Below, one piece after another: positions 22,225-36,939 of a stretch of DNA of 64,000 bases. The stretch's first letter is position 1, and each line of letters begins with the position of its first letter. The DNA is taken from NCBI RefSeq assembly GCF_019904175.1, contig NZ_CP061913.1:3968001-4032000 (forward strand). Direction: 5' to 3'. The stretch comes from Dactylosporangium vinaceum (GTDB lineage Bacteria > Actinomycetota > Actinomycetes > Mycobacteriales > Micromonosporaceae). Made by a program: the position numbers and the translations under genes. A model generated the notes under the pieces. The model made no database searches, had not been told where the DNA came from, and was given only the letters and a program-made list of their open reading frames with translations.

Positions 22225-22358
22225 GATGGTAATTCGCCAAAGACGCTGATCAGATGCACGGCACGCCGCGTGATATGTAGGCGGTAATGGCGGCGGAGTC
22301 TGCGGCGGAGTGGAAGTTTCACGCGCTGTACCACGCACGCGACCGTTCGGATTGACAA

Positions 22359-22372
22359 CTTACCCGGTTAAT
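22359..22372. promoter_or_regulatory. LacI-type operator 2 (CTTACCCGGTTAAT)
   Basis: Matches the element at 22102 at 11 of 14 positions (CTTA..CGGTTAA). It lies 124 bases upstream of the plus-strand mannanase, while the other copy lies 106 bases upstream of the minus-strand one, consistent with joint control by one repressor. Confidence 0.5.
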
Positions 22373-22495
22373 CACGACGATCGCCTCTCGCAGCCGGTGA
22401 GCGCAGCGCACGCACGTCCGGGCCCGGGCGCTCCGGCTGCCGGTCATGCCCGTGCCGTCCATCCGCGGCCCACCGATCTGCCTCAGGAGACCACC

Positions 22496-24283
22496 ATGAG
22501 ATGTCGCGCACCCGTCCGGGGCGTGCTGGCCGGGGCGGCCGCCGCCGCCGTCCTCGCCGCCGCGCTTGTCACGATCCCGTCCGCGCACGCCGCCACGGGC
22601 GGCTGCCAGGTGCAGTACCAGGTCACCAACGACTGGGGAGCCGGGGCCACGGCGAACGTCGTCGTCACCAACACCGGCCCGACCGCCGTCAGCGGCTGGA
22701 CGCTCGCCTGGACCTTCCCCGGCAGCCAGACGATCACCGATATGTGGAGCGCCACCAAGACCCAGTCCGGCGCCGCCGCCACGGCGACCAATGTCAGCTA
22801 CAACCCGGTTATCGCCGCCAACGGCGGCTCGGTCACCTTCGGGTTCAACGTCACCTACACGGGGTCCGATCCGGCCCCGACCGGCTTCGAGCTCAACGGC
22901 ACGGCCTGCGGCGGACCCGACCCAACCCCGCCGTCCAGCCCGTCCCCCCCGTCCAGCCCCGGCCCGACGTCCGGCCCCAGCCAGCCGGGCAGCCCGAGCC
23001 CGAGCGGCCCGGGCGCACCGCTGGGGAATTTGGCGCTTCGGCGGCCGGTGACCGCCTCGTCGGCGGAGGGCACCGGCCTGTCCGCCGCCAACGCAGTCGA
23101 CGGCGACCGTGGCACCCGCTGGTCCAGTGCGTACACGGACCCGCAGTGGATTCAGGTCGACCTGGGCGCTGTGCGCCCGGTGCGCCAGGTGATCCTGCGA
23201 TGGGAGGCCGCCTACGCCCGCTCGTACCAGGTGCAGACCTCCGTGGACGGCACGACCTGGACGACGCTCGCGGGTACCGTCGCCGGTGACGGCGGCGACG
23301 ACGTGCTCGCCGTGGACGGCAGCGGCCGCTACGTGCGGATGTCCGGTACCACCCGCGGGACGGCCTGGGGGTATTCCCTCTACGAACTCGAGGTCTACGC
23401 CGTGCCGGTCGCGGTGCCACCGGGCCCCGACTGCGGCCAGGCGCCGGCCGATCCCAGTGCGAATAGCAAAGCCCGCAACCTCATCTGCTACCTCCGGACG
23501 CACGCCTACGTCAGCGGGCAGACCGATGTCGCCGACGCCGACAAGGTGCAGCAGCTGACCGGCCGCTACCCGGCGATCGTCGCGTTCGACTTCATGGAGT
23601 ACACCCGCGGCAGCATCCAGACCCAGCAGGTCATCGACTGGGCGAGGCAGCGCAAGGGCATCGTCGCGTTCCAGTGGCACTGGTACTGCCCCCACGGCGG
23701 CAACTACTCCGCGCCGTGCGACTTCACGCCCGACCTGAGCAACCCGTCGTCCAAGCTGTACCAGGACATCGACCTGGTCGTCGGCGAGCTGAAAAAGATC
23801 GGCGACGCCGGCGTGCCGGTGCTGTTCCGCCCGCTGCACGAGTCCAACAACAACTACATGTGGTGGACCAAGCGGGGCCAGGCCGCCTACCAGCAGCTCT
23901 GGCGGCTCATCTATCAGCGCGCCCAGCTCGCCGGTGCGCACAACATCGTGTGGGTGTTCAACGGCATGGCCAGCGGCCAGGGCACTGCCCTGTCGTCGTG
24001 GTACCCGGGCGACGGCTACGTCGACCTGGTCACCTCCGACTACTTCCAGAGCGGCGGCGACTTCAGCACCTGCAAAGCGATCGGCAGCGCGAAGACCGTC
24101 GGCGTCGCCGAGACGTTCAGCCCGCTCAACCCGTCAACCGACCCGGCCTGGCCGTACTACGTCGTGTGGGCCTCGCGCGACTGGGCCGGCAGCGGCAAGG
24201 ACGTCGCCGGACTCTGGAAGAGCGCCATGGCCGATCCCCGCACCATCGCCGTCAACCAGCTCCCGGACATGAGCGCCTGGTAG
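22496..24283 (+). CDS. secreted GH26 endo-mannanase, CBM2-F5/8C-GH26
   Basis: A 595-residue secreted enzyme. The signal peptide ends near SAHAATGG (about residue 33). CBM2 comes first (CQVQYQVTNDWGAGATANVVV, to about residue 140), then a Pro/Ser linker, an F5/8C module near 178-300 (NLALRRPVTASSAEG, GYSLYELEVYA), and a C-terminal GH26 domain with acid/base Glu in LFRPLHESNNNYMWW and nucleophile Glu in VGVAETFSPL. Start ATG 22496 is preceded by AGGAGA. Module order is changed from the divergent enzyme and the GH26 domains are of different subtypes, so this is module shuffling rather than simple duplication. A hairpin follows the stop. Confidence 0.92.
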   Translation: MRCRAPVRGVLAGAAAAAVLAAALVTIPSAHAATGGCQVQYQVTNDWGAGATANVVVTNTGPTAVSGWTLAWTFPGSQTITDMWSATKTQSGAAATATNVSYNPVIAANGGSVTFGFNVTYTGSDPAPTGFELNGTACGGPDPTPPSSPSPPSSPGPTSGPSQPGSPSPSGPGAPLGNLALRRPVTASSAEGTGLSAANAVDGDRGTRWSSAYTDPQWIQVDLGAVRPVRQVILRWEAAYARSYQVQTSVDGTTWTTLAGTVAGDGGDDVLAVDGSGRYVRMSGTTRGTAWGYSLYELEVYAVPVAVPPGPDCGQAPADPSANSKARNLICYLRTHAYVSGQTDVADADKVQQLTGRYPAIVAFDFMEYTRGSIQTQQVIDWARQRKGIVAFQWHWYCPHGGNYSAPCDFTPDLSNPSSKLYQDIDLVVGELKKIGDAGVPVLFRPLHESNNNYMWWTKRGQAAYQQLWRLIYQRAQLAGAHNIVWVFNGMASGQGTALSSWYPGDGYVDLVTSDYFQSGGDFSTCKAIGSAKTVGVAETFSPLNPSTDPAWPYYVVWASRDWAGSGKDVAGLWKSAMADPRTIAVNQLPDMSAW

Positions 24284-24543: not shown

Positions 24544-26667
24544 ATGGGCCTGCTCAAGTTGTTCACCGCCGCCGTCGTCAGTTCCGCCATCGTCCTGAGC
24601 ACCGCGCAGGGTGCCGCCGCCGCGCCGCCCCGGCCGCCGAAGCCCGATCGAGGTCACGACCACGCCGTGATCCTGGGCCGGCCCGGCACCACCCGGGCCG
24701 CGAAGCCCGGCGCCCCGCTGCCCAAGGTCACGGGGTCGGTGCCGCTGCAGCGCGACCTGTCCGTGCGCCCCAACGCGAAGACGCTCGCAACTCCCGCCGC
24801 AGGCCCGGCCAAGGTCGGGCTGCGCGCGCTCGTCGTCGGCGTCGACGCCGGCGACTGGGGCGTCGACACCTGGCGCTCGACCCTCGACCGCGTCGGCGCC
24901 GCCTACGACGTGCTGCTCACCCGCGACCAACCCCTGACCGCGGCGTCGCTGACCCGGCCCGACGGCGCCGGGAGGTACAACGCGATACTGCTCACCAGCA
25001 GCATGCTGCTGTACAACAGCGACGGAACCTACGTCAGCGGCCTCGACGGCACCGAGTGGAACATCCTGTGGGCCTACGAGCGCGACTTCGCGGTGCGCCA
25101 GGCGACCCTCTACACCAGCTACGGCACCTACCCCGAGGACTACTGCCTGTCCGCGTCGAGCGAGGCCGCCGTCGGCGACGCGATCCTGCCCGCGTCGCTG
25201 ACCACGGCCGGGGCCGGCGTGTTCGACACCCTCAAGTCCACCGCCAAGGTCCCGATTCTGCAGTCGTACGTCTACCGCACCCGCGTCACCGCCGGCTGCG
25301 CCGCCGACCCGGTGCTCGTCAACGGGTCCGACGTGCTCGGGGTGCGCACCACGTCCGCGGACGGGCGGGAGCGCCTCGCCCTGACCTTCACCTCCAACCA
25401 GTACCTCACCCAGTCCTACCTGCTCGCCTACGGCATGTTCCGCTGGGCCAGCCGCGGGCTCTTCCTCGGCGAGCAGCGCCACTTCCTCGACGTGGACGTC
25501 GACGACTGGTTCAACACCGCCGACCACTACTACCCGGACGGGCGCGTCGAATCCGACCCGGGCTGGGCGATGACCGGCCACGAGGCCTACAACGCCGGCC
25601 AGCGGCAGGTCGCGCTGCGCGCCGCCTACCCGCTGGCCTCGGGCCTCACCCTGAACCTCGCCTACAACGGCGGCGACGCGGATCTCGGCGCCGGCACGGC
25701 GTGCAGCCCCAACGGCGGCGTCAGCACCCTCACCGCGACGAGCCGCTGCCTGGCCACGAAGTTCCGCTGGATCAACCACACACTGACCCACCCGGAGCTC
25801 AACCACACCGACTACGCCACCAGCAGCGCCGAGATCTCCGGCAACCGGACCGTCGCGACACGCCTCGGCCTGCCGCAGCCGGACGCGATCCTCAAGACGG
25901 GGGAGTACTCCGGCCTCGGCGTCTACAACGACAACCCGGACGACGACGTCGACCCGCCGACCGACCACGGCCTCGCCGCCTCCAACGCGCAGTTCCTGGC
26001 CGCCGCGCGCGACCTCGGCGTGCGCTACGTGCACGGCAACATGTCGTTCCCGAGCCAGGTGCCGAGCTGCTTCAACTGCGGCATCGTGCACCCGATGGAG
26101 CCGAGCATCACCGTGGTGCCGGACTGGCCGACGAACATCGCCTACCACACGACCACCCCGGCCGAGCAGACCGCGTTCTACAACTCCTTCTACGGGCCGA
26201 GCGGCAAGTTCCCGTTCTGGCCGGCGAACCTGACGTACGCGCAGATGCTCGACGCCGAGGCCGAGGTCGGGCTGACCCACCTGGCCACCGGGTCGCTCTA
26301 CACGCACACCTTCCACATCGCCAACCTGCACGACTACGGCGCCGGCAAGACGCTGCTCACCGACTGGCTGGACCGGGTGCTGGCCAAGTACAGCGCCTTC
26401 TACGCCGTGCCCGTGCTCAGCCCCGACTGGACGGCCCTGGCCGCGTACGCCACCCAGCGCAACGCCCACTTCGCGGCCCTGCACGGTGGCGTGGACGCCG
26501 TCTACGACCCGGCGGCACGCACGATCACGGTCACGGCCCCGGCGGCCGGCTCAGTGACGGTCAGCGGCGCGGCGGGTACCGGCGCGGTCACCTACGGGCC
26601 CGAGGTCTCGGCCCGGCTGACGATCGGCGCCGCCGCCGTGACCGCCCCCGCGAGCCCGCGCTCATGA
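24544..26667 (+). CDS. secreted polysaccharide N-deacetylase, CE18/Agd3-like
   Basis: A 707-residue exported protein; signal peptide about residues 1-27 (MGLLKLFTAAVV to QGAAAAPP). The core matches Agd3/PelA-type deacetylases: a Rossmann-like N-domain (KVGLRALVVGVDAGDWGVDT), the metal Asp motif DVDVDDWF at 316-323, and the metal pair H412-x3-H416 in NHTLTHPELN. Further conserved blocks are TGEYSGLGVYN and NMSFPSQVPSCFNCGI. The C-terminus is a small beta domain. Agd3 partly deacetylates alpha-1,4-GalNAc polymers; the substrate here is inferred. Start ATG 24544 follows GGAGTCGCC. It is first gene of a nine-gene operon and overlaps the glycosyltransferase by four bases. Family call is from memory of Agd3, so verify. 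Confidence 0.8.
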   Translation: MGLLKLFTAAVVSSAIVLSTAQGAAAAPPRPPKPDRGHDHAVILGRPGTTRAAKPGAPLPKVTGSVPLQRDLSVRPNAKTLATPAAGPAKVGLRALVVGVDAGDWGVDTWRSTLDRVGAAYDVLLTRDQPLTAASLTRPDGAGRYNAILLTSSMLLYNSDGTYVSGLDGTEWNILWAYERDFAVRQATLYTSYGTYPEDYCLSASSEAAVGDAILPASLTTAGAGVFDTLKSTAKVPILQSYVYRTRVTAGCAADPVLVNGSDVLGVRTTSADGRERLALTFTSNQYLTQSYLLAYGMFRWASRGLFLGEQRHFLDVDVDDWFNTADHYYPDGRVESDPGWAMTGHEAYNAGQRQVALRAAYPLASGLTLNLAYNGGDADLGAGTACSPNGGVSTLTATSRCLATKFRWINHTLTHPELNHTDYATSSAEISGNRTVATRLGLPQPDAILKTGEYSGLGVYNDNPDDDVDPPTDHGLAASNAQFLAAARDLGVRYVHGNMSFPSQVPSCFNCGIVHPMEPSITVVPDWPTNIAYHTTTPAEQTAFYNSFYGPSGKFPFWPANLTYAQMLDAEAEVGLTHLATGSLYTHTFHIANLHDYGAGKTLLTDWLDRVLAKYSAFYAVPVLSPDWTALAAYATQRNAHFAALHGGVDAVYDPAARTITVTAPAAGSVTVSGAAGTGAVTYGPEVSARLTIGAAAVTAPASPRS

Positions 26668-28130
26668 GGGTGGCGCTGGTGTCGGAGGGCACCTACCCGC
26701 AGGCGCTCGGCGGGGTGAGCGTCTGGTGCGATCAGCTCGTGCACGGCCTGCCCGAGCACCAGTGGGAGGCGGTGGCGCTGACCGTCGACGGCACCGAGCC
26801 GGTGCGCTGGGAACTGCCACCGAACCTCGAGCGGGTATTGACCATTCCACTGTGGAGCACCGAGCGCCGCCGCACCCGGCTGCGCCGCCCGGGCCGGGCC
26901 ACACGCACGATGTTCCACGCCGCGCTCGACGCGTTCCTGGCCGCGCTCGTCACGGCGCCCGAGCCCGACCCGCAGCGGGGGGCCGTGCAGCGCAGCCGGT
27001 TCCTGCTGGCGCTGCGGGGGCTGTACGAGTACGCCGCCGACGGCGGGGACCTGGCCGGCGCGCTGCACGCCGACGCGGCCCTCGCCCGGCTCCAGCGGCG
27101 CTGGCAGGAGGCCGACCGGGGGCGGCTCACGCTCGCCGACGCGGCCCAGGCGACCGGGCTGATCGGCAACATGCTGCGGCCGCTGACCGTCGCACCGCCG
27201 CGCGCCGACGTGGTGCACTGCGCGATGAACGGGCTGTCGACGCTCGTCGCGATGGCGGCGAAGTGGGCCTACGACACCCCGATGATCATGTCGGAGCACG
27301 GGGTCTATCTGCGGGAACGCTACCTGGAGCAGGTCAGCGGCGACCTGCCCCACACGGTCGCCGTGCTGCTGCTGGGCTTCCAGCGGGGGCTGGCCGGCGC
27401 CGCGTACCACCTCGCCGACGCGCTGGCGCCGCACTCGGCGTACAACCGGCGCTGGCAGCTGCGCAACGGCGCCGACCCGGATCGCATGTGGACGATGTAC
27501 AACGGCATCGCACCCGAGCGGTTCCCCAGCGCGCACACCGAGCCGGACGAGCCGACGATCGTCTACGTCGGGCGGATCGACCAGCTCAAGGACCTGCACA
27601 CGCTGATCCGCGCGTTCGCGCTGGTCCGCCGCCAGGTGCCCGACGCCCGGCTGCGCATCTACGGCGCGGCGATCGACCTGCCCTACCGCGACAGCTGCCA
27701 CGCGCTGATCGACACCCTGGGGCTGGCCGGCTCGGCCCGGCTCGAGGGCAGCGCACCCGACGCGGTCGCGGCCTACCACAGCGGCAGCGTCGTCGCGCTC
27801 ACGAGCATCTCCGAGGGGTTCCCGTACTCGGTCATCGAGGCGATGGCGTGCGGCCGGACGATGGTGTGCACGAACGTCGGCGGCGTGGCCGAGGCGGTCG
27901 GCGACACCGGGTTCGTGGTGCCGCCCCGCGACCCGGCCGCCGTCGCCGAGGCGTGCGTGACGCTGCTGCTCGACCCGGACCGGCGCCGGGAGCTCGCGGC
28001 CCGGGCCCGGCAGCGGGTCCTCGACCGGTTCACGCTGGCGCGGTCGCTCGACGCGTACCGCAGCCTGTACCGGCGGATCGCCGCGCCGGCCGGGCTGGGC
28101 GGACGGGTACCGGCCGGGGCGCTGCAATGA
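26664..28130 (+). CDS. PelF-type family 4 glycosyltransferase (DUF3492 N-domain)
   Basis: A 488-residue GT-B enzyme. The N-terminus MRVALVSEGTYPQALGGVSVWCDQLVHGLP is the DUF3492/PelF signature, and PTPs of this type are cytosolic Pel polymerases. The C-domain has TIVYVGRIDQLKDLHTLIRA and the EX7E motif in SISEGFPYSVIEAMACGR, then GGVAEAVGDTGFVVPPRDP. It is likely to use UDP-HexNAc to extend the polymer on the inner membrane face. Length is near PelF (about 500). It is coupled by overlap to the deacetylase before and the membrane protein after. Confidence 0.85.
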   Translation: MRVALVSEGTYPQALGGVSVWCDQLVHGLPEHQWEAVALTVDGTEPVRWELPPNLERVLTIPLWSTERRRTRLRRPGRATRTMFHAALDAFLAALVTAPEPDPQRGAVQRSRFLLALRGLYEYAADGGDLAGALHADAALARLQRRWQEADRGRLTLADAAQATGLIGNMLRPLTVAPPRADVVHCAMNGLSTLVAMAAKWAYDTPMIMSEHGVYLRERYLEQVSGDLPHTVAVLLLGFQRGLAGAAYHLADALAPHSAYNRRWQLRNGADPDRMWTMYNGIAPERFPSAHTEPDEPTIVYVGRIDQLKDLHTLIRAFALVRRQVPDARLRIYGAAIDLPYRDSCHALIDTLGLAGSARLEGSAPDAVAAYHSGSVVALTSISEGFPYSVIEAMACGRTMVCTNVGGVAEAVGDTGFVVPPRDPAAVAEACVTLLLDPDRRRELAARARQRVLDRFTLARSLDAYRSLYRRIAAPAGLGGRVPAGALQ

Positions 28131-29533
28131 TGGCGCTGGCCGCCCGTGGCTGGGCGACGGCGGACACGGTCGCGCTGCCGCTCCTGGTGCCCGGGCCACA
28201 GCCCGGGTCCGGGCCCGGTGACCCCGTCGAGGCGCTCGCGGCCGAGCTGTCCGGGCGGGTGCGGGGGGCGTTCGTGGACGGGCTGCAGGTCGCCGCGCTG
28301 CTGGAGGCCCAGGGCGTCACGGACCGCGACGCCCGTGTCCGCTACGGGCACCCGGACGTGTTCGCGCTCGCGGCCGCGGTCCACCTCCTGCTCGGGGATC
28401 GCCAGGACCCCGCGCCGCCCCGCCCGGCCCCGCGGCGCGGGTGGCGGGAGCTGCTGCACGGCGGCCTCTACCTGCTGCCGAGCGTGCTGTTCCCGGCCGT
28501 GATCACCGCCGCGCACCGCCCACCCGTGACCGCCGTCGTCACCGCCGGCCTGCTCGGCTGGGTGTGGGCGGGCGCCCTGACCTGGCTGGCCCAGCAGCAC
28601 CTGAACGCCGGCGACGAGCCGGCCGCCGGCCGGCTGCTGGCCCGCGGCTCGGTGCTCGGGGTCGCGGTGGCCGGTGCGGCCGGGGCCGCGGTCACCGCGG
28701 CGGGCGGCGACCGGGTGGCCGTGCTGCTCGTACCGGTCGTGACGGCCTACCAGCTCGCCGCGACCGTGCTGCTGTTCTTCCGCGCCGAGGCGTGGCTGGT
28801 GACCCTGATGGCGCCCGCGGCCGTGGCCGGCGGCGGGTTCGTGCTGGCCGGCGACTGGCCGCCGGCCGCCGCGATCGTGCCGGCGGTGCTCGGCACGGCG
28901 GTGAGCTTCGGGGTCGCGCTGCACCGGGCGGCGCCCGGGACCGGCGCGGCCCGGGCCGGGCGGCTGCGCGCGGTGATGCGCGGCCGCTGGAGCACCTTCG
29001 CACTCGTCGTGCTCTCCACCGCACTGCTGGCCGCGCTCGTGCTGCTGCCCCAGGTGCCGCTGCTCACCGACCGCTTCGACGCGCTGCTGGCCACGCTGCC
29101 CCTCGTGGTGTCGATGGGGTTCGTGGAGTGGCGCGCCCGCCGCTTCGGTGAGCGGGCCCGGGAGCTGCTGCACGGCGACCTCGGGCCGGCGCGCTACCGG
29201 CGGCGGCTGTGGCGCTGGCTCGCCCTGGACGTCGGGGCGTGCGCGCTCGTCGCCGGGGCCGGCGCAGCGCTCGTGCTCGCCGCCCTGCACCGGTCGGGCC
29301 GCCTCACCCCGGCCGCGGAGGCGATGGCCACCGCGAGCGTGCTGCTCGCCGGGGCCGTGCTGCTCGCCTTCGTCCTGGCCGCGCACGGCGGCTACGGACG
29401 GCTCTGCGTGGCCATGGCCGCCGCGCTCGCCGCCTACGCCACCACACCGTTCCCCGGCAGCGTCGCGCTGCTGCTCGGGCTGCTCGCCGCGGCCCTCACC
29501 CCGTCGCTGGGCCGCGTGCGGCACCACCGGTGA
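28127..29533 (+). CDS. polytopic membrane protein, candidate PelG-like exporter
   Basis: A 468-residue protein. The first 110 residues are soluble and contain LLEAQGVTDRDARVRYGHPD, a short block I recall from actinobacterial polysaccharide proteins but cannot name. About 11-12 hydrophobic helices follow, interrupted by a cytosolic loop MGFVEWRARRFGERARELLHGD. In Pel systems the gene next to pelF encodes PelG, a MOP-like flippase of similar size and helix count; by position this protein should do that job. Sequence similarity to PelG is not obvious by eye, so the call rests on context and topology. Confidence 0.6.
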   Translation: MMALAARGWATADTVALPLLVPGPQPGSGPGDPVEALAAELSGRVRGAFVDGLQVAALLEAQGVTDRDARVRYGHPDVFALAAAVHLLLGDRQDPAPPRPAPRRGWRELLHGGLYLLPSVLFPAVITAAHRPPVTAVVTAGLLGWVWAGALTWLAQQHLNAGDEPAAGRLLARGSVLGVAVAGAAGAAVTAAGGDRVAVLLVPVVTAYQLAATVLLFFRAEAWLVTLMAPAAVAGGGFVLAGDWPPAAAIVPAVLGTAVSFGVALHRAAPGTGAARAGRLRAVMRGRWSTFALVVLSTALLAALVLLPQVPLLTDRFDALLATLPLVVSMGFVEWRARRFGERARELLHGDLGPARYRRRLWRWLALDVGACALVAGAGAALVLAALHRSGRLTPAAEAMATASVLLAGAVLLAFVLAAHGGYGRLCVAMAAALAAYATTPFPGSVALLLGLLAAALTPSLGRVRHHR

Positions 29534-29570
29534 CCTCCCCTTCGATCCACACGAGAGCAGGCAATCACAT

Positions 29571-30299
29571 ATGCACGCGGTCATCATGGCCGGTGGCAAG
29601 GGCGTCAGGCTGCGCCCCTTCACCACCGCGCTGCCCAAGCCGTTGATGCCGATCGGCGAGCGGCACGCGATCCTCGGCATCGTCCTGGAGCAGCTGGCGG
29701 CGCGGGGCTTCGGCTCCGTCACGCTCTGCATCAACCACCACGGCCCGCTCATCCACGCGTTCGTCGGCGACGGGTCCCGCTGGGGTCTCGAGGTCGGCTA
29801 CGCCGAGGAGACGGTACCGCTGTCCACCGCCGGCCCGCTGTTCCTGGTCAAGGACCTGCTGCCCGAGCACTTCCTGGTCATGAACGGCGACCTGCTCACC
29901 GACCTCGACTACGCCGACCTGCTGGCCCGGCACCGCCGCGGCGGGGCGCCGCTGACGATCGCGACGGCGGCGCAGACGACCCGGATGGAGTTCGGCGTCC
30001 TCGACGTCGTGGAGGGCCGGGTGATCGGGTTCACCGAGAAGCCGGCGTACCGCCACCGCGTCTCGATGGGCATCTACGGCATGGCCCGCAAGACCCTGGA
30101 GCCCTACCCGCCCGGCCTGACCCTCGGCTTCGACCGGCTCATCCAGGACCTGCTGCGCCAGGGCGAGTTCCCCGACAGCTACGACTTCGAGGGGGTCTGG
30201 CTCGACATCGGCCGGCCGGAGGAGTACGACGAGGCCAACCGCCGCTTCGGCGAGCTCGAGACCGCGCTGCTGCCCGTGCGGAGCGGGGCGGCCGCATGA
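29571..30299 (+). CDS. sugar-1-phosphate nucleotidyltransferase
   Basis: A 242-residue NTP_transferase enzyme. The N-terminus AVIMAGGKGVRLRPFT is the nucleotide-binding signature, KPLMPIGERHAI the following loop, and MNGDLLTDLDYADLL carries the metal-binding Asp. GFTEKPAYRHRVSMGIY and DIGRPEEYDEA complete the fold. It makes an NDP-sugar from a sugar-1-phosphate and NTP; base and sugar cannot be told from motifs alone. It starts after a 37-base gap, the only real gap in the first half of the operon, and overlaps the next epimerase by four bases. Confidence 0.87.
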   Translation: MHAVIMAGGKGVRLRPFTTALPKPLMPIGERHAILGIVLEQLAARGFGSVTLCINHHGPLIHAFVGDGSRWGLEVGYAEETVPLSTAGPLFLVKDLLPEHFLVMNGDLLTDLDYADLLARHRRGGAPLTIATAAQTTRMEFGVLDVVEGRVIGFTEKPAYRHRVSMGIYGMARKTLEPYPPGLTLGFDRLIQDLLRQGEFPDSYDFEGVWLDIGRPEEYDEANRRFGELETALLPVRSGAAA

Positions 30300-31204
30300 A
30301 CCGCCTCCGTGTGCTGCTCTTCGGCGGGTCCGGCTTCGTCGGCTCCAGCGTCACCGCCGCACTCGCCGCCGACCCGCGGGTCACGCGCCTCACCTGCCCA
30401 CCCCGCGCCCAGCACGACCTCGTCACCGGCGGCATCGCGGCACTCACCGCGCTCGTGCGCCAGGCCGGCCCCGACGTCGTCGTCAACTGCACCGGCCGGC
30501 TCAGCGGCACGGCGCTGGACCTGCTGGAAGCGAACACGGTGGCGACCACCCGGCTCATCGACGCCGTCGCGGCGGCCGCGCCGGGCGCCCGGCTCGTCCG
30601 GCTCGGGTCGGCGTCGGAGTACGGACCGGTGGCGCACGGCGTCAGCGTCGCCGAGGACCACCCGTGCGCCCCCGTCGGCGAGTACGGCACGACCCACCTC
30701 GCCGGCACCCGCCTGCTGCAGCTGGCCACCGCGGCCGGCCAGGTCGACGGGGTCACGCTGCGGGTGTTCAACCCGATCGGGCCGAACCTCAACAGCGACA
30801 ACCTGCTCGGCCGGGCCGCGGTGCTCATCGGCCACGCCCTCGCCGGTGTCACCGGGCCGGTGCAGCTCGGCCCGCTCGGCGCGTACCGCGACTTCGTCGA
30901 CGTGCGTGACGTGGCCGCGGCGGTCGTCGCGGCCGCCACCTCGCCGGAGCCCGGCGCCGACGTGGTGAACATCGGCAGCGGCCACGCGGTGACCGCCCGC
31001 GAGGCCGTGCGCCGGCTCGCGGAGACGGCCGGCTACGGCGGCCCGATCCTCGAGCGGGGCAGCGGCCCGGCCCGGTCCGCCGGGGTCGACTGGGTCTGCG
31101 CCGACATCACCCGGGCCGAGGCGGTGCTGGGCTGGGTGCCGACGCACACGCTCGCCGAGTCGGTCAAGCAGATCTGGTCGGCGCTGGACGGCGGCCGCCG
31201 GTGA
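30296..31204 (+). CDS. NAD-dependent epimerase/dehydratase (extended SDR), first copy
   Basis: A 302-residue extended SDR acting on NDP-sugars. It has LLFGGSGFVGSSVTAAL (NAD loop), LGSASEYGP with the catalytic Ser region, then GEYGTTHLAGTRLLQLA, where the usual Tyr-x3-Lys reads YGTTH, so the Lys is replaced by His; RVFNPIGPNLNSDNLLG and YRDFVDVRDVAAAVV follow. The Lys change makes an altered mechanism or a non-epimerase role possible. It overlaps both neighbours by four bases and is not a close copy of the second epimerase at 33406. Confidence 0.8.
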   Translation: MNRLRVLLFGGSGFVGSSVTAALAADPRVTRLTCPPRAQHDLVTGGIAALTALVRQAGPDVVVNCTGRLSGTALDLLEANTVATTRLIDAVAAAAPGARLVRLGSASEYGPVAHGVSVAEDHPCAPVGEYGTTHLAGTRLLQLATAAGQVDGVTLRVFNPIGPNLNSDNLLGRAAVLIGHALAGVTGPVQLGPLGAYRDFVDVRDVAAAVVAAATSPEPGADVVNIGSGHAVTAREAVRRLAETAGYGGPILERGSGPARSAGVDWVCADITRAEAVLGWVPTHTLAESVKQIWSALDGGRR

Positions 31205-32079
31205 AGCGCCGGGCGGCCGCCGTCGCGGTGACCGCGGCGCTCGCCGTGCCCGGCTGCTCCGCACCGTCCGGCCCGGCGGGGTCGGCCGAGGGTTGGGTGT
31301 ACCAGCTGCAGGGCTACGACCACGCCGGGCTCACGGCACTCGCGAAGGCCCCGCAGCGCACCGCCGTCATCGACCTGGCCCGTGACGCCGGCTCCGGCTG
31401 GTTCCGGCCCGACGAGATCACCGCGCTGCGGCGGTCGGGCAAGCGTGTCCTGGCGTACTTCGAGATCGGCAGCATCGAGCGGTTCCGGCCCGAGTACCCG
31501 GGCCTGGTCCGCGACGCCGGCGACCTCGTGCTCAACCGCTGGGGCGAGTGGCCCGACGAGTACTTCGTGCGGTACTGGGACGAACGCTGGTGGGACCGGG
31601 TCGTGCGGCCCCGCCTCGACCGGGCCCTCGCCGCCGGGTTCGACGGCGTCTACCTCGACACCCTGCTCGCCTACGAGGAGGTACACGCCGGAGGGGAGCG
31701 CGAGCGGCTCGCGGCCGCGATGGTCGGGCTGCTCGCCCGGGTCGCCCGCTACGCCCGCGATCGACGCCCCGGCTTCTGGGTGGTGCCGCAGAACTCGCCG
31801 GAGCTGCGCCGCTACCCCGGCTACACCGACGCGATCGACGGTATCGGCATCGAAGAACTGTTCTACCGCGCCACCGACCGGCCCTGCACGGAGGAGTACT
31901 GCACCGAGAACCTCGCCGACGTCCGGGCGCTGCGCGGGGCCGGCAAGGTCGTCCTCGCCGTCGACTACGCCCGGACCGCCGCCGCCGTCAAGGCCGCCTG
32001 CACGCACTACCGCACCGAAGGCTTCATCGGCACCGTCACCACGCGAGAACTCGACCGGGTCGCCGCGCCCTGCGGCTGA
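31201..32079 (+). CDS. secreted GH114-family glycosidase (polygalactosaminidase-like)
   Basis: A 292-residue protein with a short N-terminal signal and a possible lipobox (AVPGCSA, Cys about residue 19; Pro at -2 is atypical). The TIM-barrel follows the endo-alpha-1,4-polygalactosaminidase (GH114) pattern: WVYQLQGYD, TAVIDLARDAGSGWF, KRVLAYFEIGSIERFRPEYP, AGFDGVYLDTLLAYEEV (catalytic Asp region) and FWVVPQNSPEL. In PelA a GH domain is fused to the deacetylase; here hydrolase and deacetylase are separate. It probably trims or releases the partly deacetylated polymer. GTG start overlaps the epimerase stop. Confidence 0.8.
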   Translation: MKRRAAAVAVTAALAVPGCSAPSGPAGSAEGWVYQLQGYDHAGLTALAKAPQRTAVIDLARDAGSGWFRPDEITALRRSGKRVLAYFEIGSIERFRPEYPGLVRDAGDLVLNRWGEWPDEYFVRYWDERWWDRVVRPRLDRALAAGFDGVYLDTLLAYEEVHAGGERERLAAAMVGLLARVARYARDRRPGFWVVPQNSPELRRYPGYTDAIDGIGIEELFYRATDRPCTEEYCTENLADVRALRGAGKVVLAVDYARTAAAVKAACTHYRTEGFIGTVTTRELDRVAAPCG

Positions 32080-32104
32080 CCGTCCGACACTGAGAGGAAC
32101 GCAC

Positions 32105-33409
32105 ATGGTCCGCACCATCGGCGTGATCGGGATGGGCTACGTCGGCCTGACCCTCACCGCCGCCCTGGCCCGCAAGGGCTTCACCGTCCACGGCGTGGAC
32201 GTCCAGCCGTCAGTCGTCGACTCCCTCAACCGCGGCCACCCGCACATCTACGAACCCGGCGTCGCCGAGGCGTTCGCCGAGCACGTGGGCCGCTCCATCT
32301 TCGTCGGCACCGCCCTGCCCACGGGCGCGGTCGACGCCGCTGTCATCTGCGTGTCGACCCCCGTCGACGAGCGCACCCGCCACCCCGACCTGACAAACCT
32401 CGCGGCCGCGGCCCGCCACGTCGCCGAAGCCTGCGCGCCGGACACGCTCGCCGTCGTGCGCAGCACCGTGCCGGTCGGCGCGAGTCGCAGCATCGTGCTG
32501 CCGCCGCTGCGCGCCGCCTGGGGCGAGGCCCGGCTCGTCATGGCGCCCGAGCGCACGATCCAGGGCCAGGCGCTGCGGGAGCTCGTGGAGCTGCCACAGG
32601 TCGTCGGCGGCCTCGACGAGGACAGCCTGTACGCCGGGCTCGACCTCTTCGGCGGCCTCGCCGAGCGGCTCGTCCCCGTCTCCGGGCTGGAGACCGCCGA
32701 GCTCGTGAAGCTGTCCAACAACTGCCACACCGATCTCATCTACGCGTACGGCAACGAGATCGCACTCATCGCCGAGCGGCACGGCCTCGACCCGCTCGAG
32801 GTGATCGGCGCGGCCAACGTGGACTACCCGCGCCCCGACCTCGCCCGGCCCGGCTACGTCGGCGGCGGGTGCCTGTCGAAGGACCCGTACATCATGCTGA
32901 GCGAGACCGGCGACCGCGCGCCGTTCCTCATCGAGCCGGCCCGCCGCCTCAACGAGCACCTGCCCGTGCACGTTGCCCGGACCGTCGTGGAGCTGATCCG
33001 GCAGGAGTGCGGCACCACCGAGGGCACGACGCTTGCCGTGCTGGGGTGGGCGTACAAGGGCTGGCCGGCCACCGACGACATGCGCGGCACGCCGATCGCC
33101 GCAATGATGCCGGCCTTCGCCGGCGCCGGCCTCACCGTCCTGGGCCACGACCCGCTTGTCGCCGACGCGGTCATGCGGCAGTACGGCGGGCAGCCCACCA
33201 GTATCGACAAGGCCTTCAGCGAGGCGGACGCGGTGCTGGTGCTCACCGACCATCCGGACTACCGCGCGATCGAGCCGGCGTCGGTGCTCGGCGCCCGGCG
33301 CCCGGCGGTCGTCTTCGACTCGTGGCGCATCCTCGACGAGGCCGCGCTGCGGGCCGCCGGCGTGCGCTACGCCGGCATCGGCTACCTGGCGCAGGGGGTG
33401 GCGGCATGA
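32105..33409 (+). CDS. UDP-sugar 6-dehydrogenase (UDP-glucose/GDP-mannose DH family)
   Basis: A 434-residue NAD-dependent enzyme making a UDP-hexuronate or hexosaminuronate. It has IGVIGMGYVGLTLTAALA, CVSTPVDERTRHPDL and VVRSTVPVG. VELPQVVGGLDEDS and ELVKLSNNCHTDLIYAYGNEIA follow, then the nucleophile Cys in GYVGGGCLSKDPY. The sequence looks nearer to the UDP-N-acetylmannosaminuronate (WecC-like) group than to UDP-glucose DH, a judgement by eye. It implies an acidic residue in the polymer or a uronate branch. GAGAGGAA precedes ATG 32105. It overlaps the following epimerase. Confidence 0.88.
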   Translation: MVRTIGVIGMGYVGLTLTAALARKGFTVHGVDVQPSVVDSLNRGHPHIYEPGVAEAFAEHVGRSIFVGTALPTGAVDAAVICVSTPVDERTRHPDLTNLAAAARHVAEACAPDTLAVVRSTVPVGASRSIVLPPLRAAWGEARLVMAPERTIQGQALRELVELPQVVGGLDEDSLYAGLDLFGGLAERLVPVSGLETAELVKLSNNCHTDLIYAYGNEIALIAERHGLDPLEVIGAANVDYPRPDLARPGYVGGGCLSKDPYIMLSETGDRAPFLIEPARRLNEHLPVHVARTVVELIRQECGTTEGTTLAVLGWAYKGWPATDDMRGTPIAAMMPAFAGAGLTVLGHDPLVADAVMRQYGGQPTSIDKAFSEADAVLVLTDHPDYRAIEPASVLGARRPAVVFDSWRILDEAALRAAGVRYAGIGYLAQGVAA

Positions 33410-34359
33410 GGGCGCTGCTGCTGGGCGGGGCGGGGTTCATCGGCCTGCACCTGGCCCGCCGCCTGCTCGACGACGGCGGCGACGTCACCATCGTCGACGA
33501 CTTCTCCCGCGGCCGCAACGACCCGGACCTCGGCGAGCTCGCCCGCGGGCCGCACCTGGGCGTCCAGCACGGTGACCTCACCGACCCGGCCACCTGGCGG
33601 GTGCTCCCGCACGGCTGGGACCAGATCTACCTGCTGGCCGCAGTCGTCGGCGTGCGCAACGTCGAGGCCGACCCGGCCCGGGCCGTCCGCGTCAACAGCC
33701 TCGCGGTGCTGCACCTGCTCGACTGGATCACCGCCGGCGAACACGTCTTCTTCGCCTCCACCAGTGAGGTGTACGCCGGTGCCGTCGACGCCGGCATCGC
33801 CCCCGTGCCCACGGGGGAGTCGGTGCCGGTGGCGATCGGCGACGTGACAGCGCCCCGGTACGCCTACGCGGTGAGCAAGCTGCTCGGCGAGGCGGCGATC
33901 ATCCACGGGGCCCGGGCGAAACACTTCCGGGCCGTCGTGGGCCGGTTCCACAACGTGTACGGGCCGCGGATGGGCACAGCCCACGCCATCCCCGAGCTGA
34001 CCCTGCGGGCGCTGCGCGGCGAGCGGCCGCTGCGGGTGCCGGGCGCCGAGCAGACCCGCGCGTTCTGCTACGTCGACGACGCCGTCGAGGCGATAGTGCG
34101 CCTCATGGCCACCTCACGGGCCGACGGGCGGATCGTGCACATCGGCGACGACACCGCCGAGACCGGCATCGCCGACCTCGCCAAGCTGGTGCTGCGCCTC
34201 ACCGGCGCCGACACCGAGATCGCGCCGGCCGCGGGGGCGCCCGGCGCGGTCACCCGCCGCTGCCCGGACCTGACGCTGCTGCGGTCGCTGACGGGCTATC
34301 AGCCGGCGGTACCGCTGGAGGAGGGCGTGCGGCGGACCGTGGAGTGGTACCGCCGATGA
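33406..34359 (+). CDS. NAD-dependent epimerase/dehydratase (extended SDR), second copy
   Basis: A 317-residue NDP-sugar epimerase, decarboxylase or dehydratase. It has LLLGGAGFIGLHLARRLL, an acidic loop after VTIVDDFSRG, LAAVVGVRNVEADPARAVRVN, FASTSEVY and canonical Tyr-x3-Lys in YAYAVSKLLGEAA. VGRFHNVYGPRMG and TRAFCYVDDAVEAIVRLM close the fold. The RFHNVYGPRMG block recalls UDP-glucuronate decarboxylases and GalE-like enzymes; following the dehydrogenase, a UDP-uronate substrate is plausible. It overlaps the last gene by four bases. Confidence 0.85.
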   Translation: MRALLLGGAGFIGLHLARRLLDDGGDVTIVDDFSRGRNDPDLGELARGPHLGVQHGDLTDPATWRVLPHGWDQIYLLAAVVGVRNVEADPARAVRVNSLAVLHLLDWITAGEHVFFASTSEVYAGAVDAGIAPVPTGESVPVAIGDVTAPRYAYAVSKLLGEAAIIHGARAKHFRAVVGRFHNVYGPRMGTAHAIPELTLRALRGERPLRVPGAEQTRAFCYVDDAVEAIVRLMATSRADGRIVHIGDDTAETGIADLAKLVLRLTGADTEIAPAAGAPGAVTRRCPDLTLLRSLTGYQPAVPLEEGVRRTVEWYRR

Positions 34360-35036
34360 TCGTGTTCTACTACGGCGCCGGCCGGGTCCCGGAGCTCGCC
34401 GGCTACTCGCGGGCGGTCCTGCAGCCGGAGTTCTACCAGCCGCCGGAGCTGCACCGGCTGCGGGCGGCCGGGACCGAACCGCTGGCGTACCTGTCGCTGT
34501 CGGAGGACCAGGGCCCGCCGGCGCCATGGCAGCGCCCGGAGCGCAACCCGGACTGGGGCGGCGCCTTCGTGCACGTCGGGCACCCGGGCTGGCACGGGCA
34601 CGTGCTGGCGCAGGCCCGCGCCGCCATCGACGCGGGCTTCGCCGGGCTGTTCCTCGACACCCTCAACGTCGAGCTGACGTATCCGGAAGACCTGCCGCCG
34701 CTGCTGGAGCTCATCGCCGCCCTGCGCGCGCTGCCCGGCTCCGGCTACGTGCTGGCCAACCGGGGCTTCGGGCTGCTGCCCGAGCTGGCCGGCCACGTCG
34801 ACGGCATCCTGTTCGAGTCGTTCTCGGCCCGCTGGACGGCCGAGGGCTACGGCCCGTGGCCGCCCGACGTGCTCGAGGGCCACGCGCGGGTCGCCGAGGA
34901 GCTGCCGCGCTACGGCCTCGACCTGTACGCGCTGGACTACGCCGACTCGCCGGGGCTGGCCGACTTCGCCCGCCGGCGGGCCGCGCTGTTCGGGATGGAG
35001 TGCGTCATCAGCGACCGGGCCCTGTCCTTGGTGTGA
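34356..35036 (+). CDS. cytosolic GH114/TM1410-like barrel protein
   Basis: A 226-residue protein without a signal peptide, start ATG 34356 coupled to the epimerase. The pattern (MIVFYYGAGRVPELAGYSRAV, GTEPLAYLSLSEDQG, AAIDAGFAGLFLDTLNVELT, GYVLANRGFGLLPELAG) is that of a minimal GH114/TM1410-like TIM barrel. The Asp of GLFLDT is kept, but the usual FEIG strand reads LSLSEDQG. It may be a cytosolic hydrolase acting on lipid- or nucleotide-linked intermediates, or a sugar-binding relic. A second GH114-like gene in one operon is unusual. It is last gene of the operon, facing a bidirectional terminator. Confidence 0.6.
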   Translation: MIVFYYGAGRVPELAGYSRAVLQPEFYQPPELHRLRAAGTEPLAYLSLSEDQGPPAPWQRPERNPDWGGAFVHVGHPGWHGHVLAQARAAIDAGFAGLFLDTLNVELTYPEDLPPLLELIAALRALPGSGYVLANRGFGLLPELAGHVDGILFESFSARWTAEGYGPWPPDVLEGHARVAEELPRYGLDLYALDYADSPGLADFARRRAALFGMECVISDRALSLV

Positions 35037-35180: not shown

Positions 35181-36356
35181 TCAGCCGCGCCCGCACGTCC
35201 ACACGACCGGCAGCGGGGTAGTGCCGACCTGCCCAGCGAGCGTGGTTCCGGCATCACTGATCGATGTCACGATGGTCTGGCGAGGGTCCTCGGGGCCCGG
35301 CACCGGCAGCGCCACTGTGGCACCGCCGGCGACGAGGCTCGGCGATCCGGCTATCCAGCCGTTCGGGTTGACCACCTGGAAGAATCCCGGCGTGCTGCTG
35401 ACGTCACCCGTGCCGAGGTTCCACACGACGCCGTCGATGTACTTGCCGCCGGTCCAGTCATAGAGCGCTTTGCCGAGCACGAGGCCGCCGCGGATCGCGA
35501 TCCCCGAATAGTCGTTGCTCACCTGATCGTGTCCGCGCGGCGCGGGCATGCGCTGCAGGGTCCCGTCGGGGTGCCACACCACGGCGACCCGCTCGGCCCC
35601 CCTGGCGGCGGTGCCGACGATCGTGCCGTCCTCGTCGATCGCCCGGGCTTCGGCCTTCCAACCCGCTCCGGCCGACGCGAGCGGCACCGGGTCGTCGGTC
35701 GGCGAGCGCCACCGGGCCGGGCCGTCCGCGGTCGTGCCGGCCATCATGCCCGCGTCGTTGATGCCCACGACCTGCGCCTCCCGGCCCTTCACCCGGCTGA
35801 CCGTGCCGTCGGCGACCACCCAACCGACGTGCTTGCCGTTCACCAGACTGCCGCCGACAGCGACGCCGTGCGAGTTGATGTCGCTGAGCCCGCGCTCCAC
35901 GCCGGGCATCGCCACCGTCTTCGGGTCGTGGGCATCCACCCATATCACCGGCGTCGGCTCGGCCGCCTGCGGGTATGTCCGCCCGACGATGTAGTGCCCG
36001 GTCGGATCGGCGCCGCTGACGATGCCCTTGGGAGGCTGTCCGGCCGGCACGGGAAGCTGGGCGGCCCGGCAGACCGGCGGTCCGCTCGGCGCACCGCTCG
36101 GGCTCGGGTCCGGCCGGCCGCTGCCCGAGGCTGCGACCTGCGGTGGGACGCCGCCGCGCCAGCCGCTTGTGGCGAGCCAGCCCGTGGCGAGGATCGCGAC
36201 CACCGCGGCGGCGACGCCGGCCGAGCCGGCCAGCCGCGCCCGGCGATGACGGCGCTCACCCTCGGTGACCGCCCGCATGACGTTCACGGTGGACGGGCCC
36301 GGCTCCCCGTCCAGGACGCGGAACACCGCCGCGCCGTACTGCTCGTCGGTAGTCAC
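35181..36356 (-). CDS. membrane-anchored protein with extracellular HAF-like repeats, sigma-factor partner
   Basis: A 391-residue single-pass protein. The N-terminal 40 residues are cytosolic, one helix (GSAGVAAAVVAILATGWLA) follows, then a Pro/Ser spacer and a repeated beta-rich ectodomain. The repeats carry GLSDINSHGVAVGGS, VVGINDAGMMAGTT, EARAIDEDGTIVGTAA and SISDAGTTLAGQVG, the HAF-repeat style that forms propellers. Eight bases separate it from the SigE-type sigma factor upstream, so it is likely its co-expressed regulator or output. There is no classical zinc anti-sigma motif. Role inferred from context. Confidence 0.65.
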   Translation of the reverse strand: MTTDEQYGAAVFRVLDGEPGPSTVNVMRAVTEGERRHRRARLAGSAGVAAAVVAILATGWLATSGWRGGVPPQVAASGSGRPDPSPSGAPSGPPVCRAAQLPVPAGQPPKGIVSGADPTGHYIVGRTYPQAAEPTPVIWVDAHDPKTVAMPGVERGLSDINSHGVAVGGSLVNGKHVGWVVADGTVSRVKGREAQVVGINDAGMMAGTTADGPARWRSPTDDPVPLASAGAGWKAEARAIDEDGTIVGTAARGAERVAVVWHPDGTLQRMPAPRGHDQVSNDYSGIAIRGGLVLGKALYDWTGGKYIDGVVWNLGTGDVSSTPGFFQVVNPNGWIAGSPSLVAGGATVALPVPGPEDPRQTIVTSISDAGTTLAGQVGTTPLPVVWTCGRG

Positions 36357-36363
36357 GTCGGCC

Positions 36364-36939
36364 TCAGCCGCCCTTCCGCTCGATGATGGAGTCGCCCAGC
36401 ACGCGGCGCAGTGTGGCCAGCCCGCGGGACGACTGGCTGCGGACCGTCCCGGCCGAGCACTCCAGTGCCGCCGCGACCTCCTCGACCGTCATGTCGCACA
36501 GGAATCGCAGAATCAGCACGGCGCGCTGCCGGCTCGGCACGTGTTGCAGTGCCGAGCGCACGGTCACCTCGTCGACCACGCGCTCATGGAACCCACCGCC
36601 GGGGTCGGGCCGCTCGGGCAGGTCCCCGGGCAGCACCGTGCGCGACCAGGGCCGTCGCTTCTCGTCGACGAACGCGCGCACGAGCATCGTGCGCACGTAC
36701 TGGTCGAGGTGCTCCACCTCGCTCACGCGCAGCCAGCGGGTGTACAGGCGCGTGATCGTCTGTTGCACCAGATCGTCGGCTCGCTGCCCGTCGCCGCACA
36801 GCACGTAGGCCAGCTTGCGCAGCATCGGCATACGCCCGGTCACGTACTCGACGTACTGCTGCTGTTTGTCGGTCCGCAAAGATCGGTATCCCTTCTTGCG
36901 TCCCGACTTCAACGGCCGAACCATGGCCCGGCGTTGCAC
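36364..36939 (-). CDS. SigE-family ECF RNA polymerase sigma factor
   Basis: A 191-residue sigma factor of the actinobacterial SigE-like ECF group. Region 2 reads RMPMLRKLAYVLCGDGQRADDLVQQTITRLYTRW; region 4 reads ALQHVPSRQRAVLILRFLCDMTVEEVAAALECSAGTVRSQSSRGLATLR. The N-terminus is basic. GTG at 36939 has GGAG upstream; an ATG five codons later is possible. It is transcribed with the membrane-anchored repeat protein, a common arrangement for envelope-signal circuits. Confidence 0.88.
   Translation of the reverse strand: MQRRAMVRPLKSGRKKGYRSLRTDKQQQYVEYVTGRMPMLRKLAYVLCGDGQRADDLVQQTITRLYTRWLRVSEVEHLDQYVRTMLVRAFVDEKRRPWSRTVLPGDLPERPDPGGGFHERVVDEVTVRSALQHVPSRQRAVLILRFLCDMTVEEVAAALECSAGTVRSQSSRGLATLRRVLGDSIIERKGG

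Follow-up and report, generated by a model that had tools for sequence, protein, structure and literature searches.

A nine-gene operon of Dactylosporangium vinaceum probably directs the synthesis and modification of an exopolysaccharide of the Pel/galactosaminogalactan (GAG) class, most likely one rich in alpha-1,4-GalNAc. The window, a 64,000-nt stretch of DNA, is C1:3968001-4032000 of the 12-Mb single-contig genome of this member of the Micromonosporaceae. Its operon lies on the plus strand at 24544-35036, and all nine gene calls hold up as real (Table 1). A first-pass annotation had described nine genes on one strand with mostly 4-base overlaps; such overlaps are found at six of the eight junctions, and the other two, 3/4 and 6/7, have gaps of 37 and 25 bases, respectively. 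Searches of the window for RNA families and tRNAs found none. The annotation had also read the locus as a Pel/GAG-type operon in which the functions of PelA are split into a deacetylase and hydrolases, a reading that is supported here. Gene content, families, conservation, and predicted folds are established by the analysis; from them we infer the substrate, the direction of transport, and every catalytic step.

Table 1. Genes of the D. vinaceum operon (positions are those of the window).
Gene	Assignment	Position	Strand	Basis
1	Secreted Agd3-type deacetylase (CBM87 + CE18-like domain)	24544..26667	+	PF25116/PF25115, 6nwz
2	PelF-type GT4 polysaccharide synthase, DUF3492 N-domain	26664..28130	+	DUF3492, NF038011
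3	Polytopic MOP-superfamily flippase-like protein with N-terminal helical domain (predicted)	28127..29533	+	AF2 model
4	Sugar-1-phosphate nucleotidyltransferase	29571..30299	+	PF00483, 6e-36
5	SDR "epimerase," altered YxxxK	30296..31204	+	PF01370, 4.8e-34
6	GH191-type endo-galactosaminidase, probable lipoprotein	31201..32079	+	9ep5, 1e-97
7	Nucleotide-sugar 6-dehydrogenase	32105..33409	+	TIGR03026, GGGCLSKD active-site Cys motif
8	Extended SDR, UDP-glucuronate-decarboxylase-like	33406..34359	+	UXS1, 6.8e-35
9	GH166/PelA-hydrolase-like TIM barrel without signal peptide	34356..35036	+	5tcb, AF2 model

The proposed CE18/Agd3-like deacetylase is borne out, as gene 1 exceeds the Pfam cut-offs for both Agd3 domains (CBM87_Agd3, 36.5 bits versus 27.6; Agd3_CE, 35.5 versus 27.6). 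A profile of 30 gene 1 orthologues has Agd3 as its sole match in the PDB (6nwz, 1e-29), and the N terminus is hydrophobic (maximum 15-residue Kyte-Doolittle value of 2.03). When gene 1 residues are mapped onto the Agd3 residues named in PMC7229062, D320/D321 correspond to D377/D378, H412/H416 to H510/H514, and H591 to H668; all five are invariant in 30 of 30 orthologues, and motifs CM1 (DD), CM2 (HxxxH), and CM4 (acid His) are thus present. Among the catalytic residues suggested earlier, H412-x3-H416 stands, while D316 is not conserved and the catalytic aspartates are D320/D321. The CE18 arginine of CM3 (R613 in Agd3) is D527 in gene 1 and is missing across the clade, its column reading D in 26, C in 3, and A in 1 of the 30 orthologues. 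The position of Agd3 Met666 is Thr in every one of them. According to the main text of PMC7229062, Agd3 activity requires both R613 and Met666, and the CM3 arginine is present in most, not all, bacterial homologues; PelA likewise lacks it, yet is an active deacetylase (PMC12022489). Because of these two replacements, the substrate or mechanism of the gene 1 clade may differ from that of Agd3, and both count against a Pel/GAG product. Judged by its sequence, gene 1 represents a divergent Agd3-like clade and not obviously a dead enzyme.

Gene 2 scores 149.6 bits against DUF3492 (cut-off, 23.3; E value, 1.9e-43) and 146.2 bits against the NCBIfam PelF equivalog NF038011 (cut-off, 100), which confirms the earlier call of a PelF-like glycosyltransferase with DUF3492 and GT4 domains. 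Two outcomes had been named beforehand as contrary to the reading of the operon, a 24544 product unlike CE18/Agd3 and a 26664 product without a PelF-type N-domain. Neither occurred, and both products match.

The membrane domain of gene 3 is predicted to have a MOP-superfamily flippase fold. Its AF2 model (pLDDT 84.8, pTM 0.80) aligns with WzxE and MATE structures at Z scores of about 18 (WzxE, Z 18.0, rmsd 4.7 over 336 residues); by sequence, nothing in the PDB matched, and profile searches assigned the protein to no family. The PelG profile PF16933, whose control was positive, matched nowhere in the genome, and profile-profile comparison of gene 3 with PelG by hhalign gave a probability of ∼0.5%. 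Membership of gene 3 in the PelG family is ruled out by these two tests, and the missing sequence-level relation counts against the preferred explanation; agreement is confined to the fold of the superfamily, to which we take PelG to belong. The PelD profile PF16963 likewise found no match in the genome, though no control genome matched either. These genome-wide absences are those of family profile searches, and the outer-membrane parts of Pel systems are not expected in a Gram-positive organism. The earlier claim that export must differ from that in Pseudomonas is not supported: since gene 3 is a predicted MOP flippase, a mode of export distinct in principle from that of PelG need not be assumed. 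At its N terminus, gene 3 also has a conserved helical domain of some 70 residues (∼29-100), which contains 16 of the protein's 36 invariant residues. Close homologues of gene 3 in the searched genome contigs are limited to D. aurantiacum and Amorphoplanes because the protein diverges fast.

Both hydrolases had been assigned to GH114, and neither assignment survived at the family level. The profile of gene 6 matches Env-GH191 (9ep5) and TM1410 (4e-40) far better than the GH114 enzyme Ega3 (7e-9), although the protein also passes the Pfam Glyco_hydro_114 model; it is placed in GH191 instead. Its catalytic Asp/Glu pair, D153 and E218, is invariant among orthologues. The N terminus (maximum Kyte-Doolittle value of 1.92 over 15 residues) has a lipobox-like VPGC, and a lipobox is found in many orthologues; by sequence, gene 6 is a probable membrane-anchored lipoprotein. 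Its nearest solved relative, Env-GH191, cleaves Pel, and soluble bacterial GH114 enzymes could not be produced in that work (PMC12054363). Two further GH114-family genes are present in the genome (C1:86761-87405 and 9228868-9229524).

Gene 9 has no match in Pfam, Glyco_hydro_114 included. It is closest to the hydrolase domain of PelA, GH166 (5tcb, 8e-22), and its AF2 model (pLDDT 93) agrees, with a Z score of 26.1 to PelA versus 24.4 to GH191 and 20.8 to Ega3; the catalytic pair D101 and E154 is invariant among orthologues. Its location was judged from the start codon, the first barrel strand, and Kyte-Doolittle values in the window gene and 15 orthologues. Strand 1 of the modelled barrel begins at residue 2, which leaves no room for a signal peptide, and the N terminus is not hydrophobic (maximum 15-residue value of 0.80). 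The start codon lies 3 to 8 codons ahead of the barrel in 14 of the 15 orthologues; the remaining one (L065) has none in that range. Gene 9 is therefore predicted to be cytosolic and departs from the extracytoplasmic location of GH166 in Pel.

Four genes of the operon concern nucleotide sugars. The nucleotidyltransferase call for gene 4 stands (Table 1), and its nearest PDB sequences are mannose-1-phosphate guanylyltransferases and one UTP-glucose-1-phosphate uridylyltransferase. The epimerase call for gene 5 stands as far as the SDR fold family goes. Its glycine motif is intact, but the canonical YxxxK is not: the lysine is His in gene 5, and its column holds His in 19, Arg in 3, and Lys in 2 of 24 aligned rows, a loss in 22 of them. 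With this Lys-to-His change it is doubtful that gene 5 is the operon's UDP-GlcNAc 4-epimerase, and since its active site is non-canonical, no gene of the operon is clearly such an enzyme, which also counts against the preferred explanation. Gene 7 is a sugar dehydrogenase, as first proposed (TIGR03026, 295 bits against a cut-off of 190). Its GGGCLSKD motif is invariant across the aligned rows, its nearest PDB entries are the UDP-ManNAcA dehydrogenase 4r16 and CalS8, and its nearest matches mix UDP-ManNAc, NDP-glucose, and UDP-glucose dehydrogenases, leaving the donor among several nucleotide sugars. Gene 8, annotated as a second epimerase, resembles UDP-glucuronate decarboxylases instead: UXS1 is the top of 58 PDB sequences, and the TSE and YxxxK motifs are intact and conserved. 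The uronate component predicted for the polymer is consequently tentative, as the decarboxylase-like SDR encoded downstream of the dehydrogenase would yield a pentose. The second sugar may thus be a pentose, and a uronate or pentose constituent is plausible from the gene content.

These genes bear on the question of whether the operon makes a different polymer, the PelF-like GT4 of this clade using another donor, such as a uronate, a pentose, or GlcNAc, with a corresponding shift in substrate for the hydrolases and the CE18-like enzyme. The four additional nucleotide-sugar genes travel with the operon, the CM3 arginine is lost across the whole clade, and a GAG-type operon of the same genome (see below) showed no relatives of genes 7 and 8. 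We nevertheless consider this unlikely, given that four independent families (CE18, PelF, GH191, and GH166) indicate alpha-1,4-GalNAc/GalN and that the nearest solved hydrolase cuts Pel, as reported in PMC12054363.

Matches to PF25115 occur in 33 of 201 family genomes, and 29 genomes, including D. vinaceum, have the nine-gene type as counted from retrieved neighbourhoods. The full set is present in identical order in 18 sampled Micromonosporaceae genomes (16 retrieved stretches, Amorphoplanes auranticolor, and the D. vinaceum window). Among the other nine-type genomes, three are collinear to the limit of the stretch and one is interrupted by a contig end; gene 6 is missing from the operon in 2 of the 29, and in 5 of the 29, genes 1-5 and the 6-9 group form two convergent blocks. 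All gene pairs co-diverge (pairwise identity matrices of the nine genes, r of 0.82 to 0.96). The operon genes have dN/dS values of 0.23 to 0.48 versus D. aurantiacum, and by this measure all nine are under purifying selection. Conserved order in 18 genomes, co-divergence, and dN/dS together argue that the association of the genes exceeds chance. In the phylum samples, the nine-type deacetylase profile has matches in 13 of 396 genomes, and close relatives of gene 9 (>400 bits) are found only in the two matching Micromonosporaceae. Solitary nine-type deacetylase genes without PelF occur in one genome (L046, L047), and a tandem pair of deacetylases occurs in another (L057).

A second Agd3-type operon is present in the D. 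vinaceum genome at C1 ∼817295-825408. It is GAG-like, with GalE, CE18, PelF, a MOP-like membrane protein, spherulin-4 without a signal peptide, and a secreted GH114 enzyme. The membrane protein owes the term MOP-like to its detection by the gene 3 profile (86 bits), and the N-terminal helical domain of gene 3 is recognisable in it by eye. In Streptomyces-like genomes, CE18, PelF, a membrane protein, and spherulin-4 occur together, joined in some by GH114; several of their operons also include an SDR resembling dehydratases, along with close relatives of genes 4 and 5. PelF, PelG, and an Agd3-type deacetylase adjoin in a distant actinobacterial lineage (L101, L102), an arrangement that amounts to a Pel operon with an Agd3-type deacetylase, and these deacetylases resemble the nine-type clade. 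Spherulin-4 was examined in 12 GAG- and Streptomyces-type operons; in all 12, its start codon lies at most ∼10 codons from the barrel and there is no hydrophobic leader, although one of the proteins (L111) starts fairly hydrophobic (1.79). In the two distant PelF-PelG-CE18 genomes, spherulin-4 has a hydrophobic, signal-peptide-like leader. Because the leader is absent in all 12, we tentatively suggest, as something short of an even chance, that actinomycete Agd3-type operons have a dedicated slot for a cytosolic endo-N-acetylgalactosaminidase, filled by a GH166-like enzyme in the nine-gene operon of the Micromonosporaceae or by spherulin-4 (GH135-like) in the GAG and Streptomyces types, and that GH191/GH114 enzymes are exported. 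If true, the PelF polymer would undergo intracellular cleavage, either ahead of export or while it proceeds; no description of such a step was found for Pel or GAG in the literature examined.

In the mechanism that we propose, PelF (gene 2) would polymerise an NDP-hexosamine in the cytosol and the MOP-type protein (gene 3) would carry the chain outward, its N-terminal domain possibly serving, instead of PelD/PelE, as the site at which PelF docks. Secreted gene 1 would strip some of the acetyl groups to give a cationic, adhesive chain, and the GH191 lipoprotein (gene 6) would cut deacetylated stretches, releasing or remodelling the polymer. The cytosolic GH166-like enzyme (gene 9) probably cuts the still-acetylated chain and clears stalled or over-long product. 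Genes 4, 5, 7, and 8 would supply a second nucleotide sugar, a uronate or, after decarboxylation, a pentose. Characterised relatives of Agd3, PelF, GH191, and GH166 either synthesise alpha-1,4-GalNAc/GalN polymers or act on them, and such a polymer is favoured because the four families co-occur in one conserved operon. Support also comes from the invariance of the Asp/Glu pairs in both hydrolases and of motifs CM1, CM2, and CM4 in gene 1, from the predicted flippase fold of gene 3, co-divergence, and purifying selection, and from the adjacency of nine-type-like deacetylases to genuine PelF/PelG in the distant lineage. A single glycosyltransferase for what may be a two-sugar polymer counts against it.

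Just upstream of the operon are two GH26 mannanase genes on opposite strands (20176-21996, minus; 22310-24283, plus), both of which encode CBM2 and F5/8 type C domains. Their presence, and the activity on GAG or Pel shown by the nearest relatives of genes 1, 6, and 9, would suit a scavenging operon whose secreted enzymes degrade fungal GAG or other soil polymers for recycling of the sugars. This is very improbable: the operon has conserved genes for a PelF synthase, a flippase-like protein, and the synthesis of nucleotide sugars, and the importers and catabolic kinases expected for scavenging are absent from the nine genes. At the other end, a sigma-factor-like gene and a downstream gene (35181-36939, minus), read by eye, are convergent with the operon, and a GAF/kinase-like gene lies beyond at 37221, also by eye.

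In bacteria as well as fungi, cationic galactosamine polymers are drivers of adhesion and biofilm formation. Dactylosporangium, like Actinoplanes, forms sporangia. The polymer could accordingly be a developmental (sporangium or spore) matrix and not a biofilm adhesin, a matter of role that is compatible with the preferred chemistry. Actinoplanes, of the same family, embeds its spores in a polysaccharide sporangium matrix, and its imp cluster of seven genes encodes four glycosyltransferases and Wzx/Wzy-like proteins (PMC12691653, PMC13390465). That cluster has none of the genes that define the nine-gene operon, and we regard a developmental role as rather improbable. Identity of the operon with the imp/wps/gsf sporangium-matrix clusters of Actinoplanes was rejected on gene content. 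As a probable Pel/GAG-class locus, the operon provides a tractable system for asking how a PelF product leaves the cell without PelG, PelD, or PelE, and its conservation as a variant of filamentous soil actinobacteria with a second nucleotide sugar of its own lets one ask why one hydrolase stays intracellular and how an Agd3-type enzyme does its chemistry when the arginine is missing. The encoded hydrolases are candidate biofilm-dispersing enzymes.

The GAG cluster of Aspergillus fumigatus (uge3, agd3, gtb3, ega3, sph3) shares an Agd3 deacetylase, two endo-hydrolases, and a synthase with the nine-gene operon, but its content is better matched by the second operon of D. vinaceum. Gram-positive pelDEADAFG of Bacillus cereus (PMC7112168) has in common a PelF synthase, a membrane transporter, and a separate deacetylase; the nine-gene operon differs in having no match to PelD or PelG profiles (the PelD search being without a positive control), an Agd3-type and not PelA-type deacetylase, and extra hydrolases and sugar genes. 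The Pseudomonas Pel operon (PelA-G) shares PelF and the two activities of PelA, which are on one polypeptide there and on separate ones, genes 1 and 9, here; in addition, PelG is undetectable by sequence in the nine-gene operon, and the GH166-like hydrolase is predicted to be cytosolic where that of Pseudomonas is periplasmic. Env-GH191 and TmGH191 share the family and catalytic Asp/Glu of gene 6, and no tie to an Agd3/PelF operon was found in the portions of PMC12054363 used. The operon had been called undescribed, which is not the case for its general kind: the main text of Bamford et al. 2020 (PMC7229062) describes bacterial Agd3 operons, from Actinobacteria among others, with genes for a cytoplasmic glycosyltransferase, a multi-span membrane protein, and GH114 or spherulin-4. 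An agd3 homologue, these two proteins, and one or more endo-galactosaminidase genes are shared, and an identical example may be among the operons in the figure or supplement of that paper. In comparison with its main text, which names GH114/spherulin-4, the nine-gene operon encodes GH191 and GH166-like hydrolases, the latter predicted to be cytosolic, together with four additional nucleotide-sugar enzymes and a deacetylase that lacks the CM3 arginine. New, then, are a Micromonosporaceae variant that encodes its own supply of a second nucleotide sugar and whose composition and conservation were not found in the literature examined, and the proposed slot for a cytosolic hydrolase, GH166-like here and spherulin-4 in the Streptomyces-type operons.
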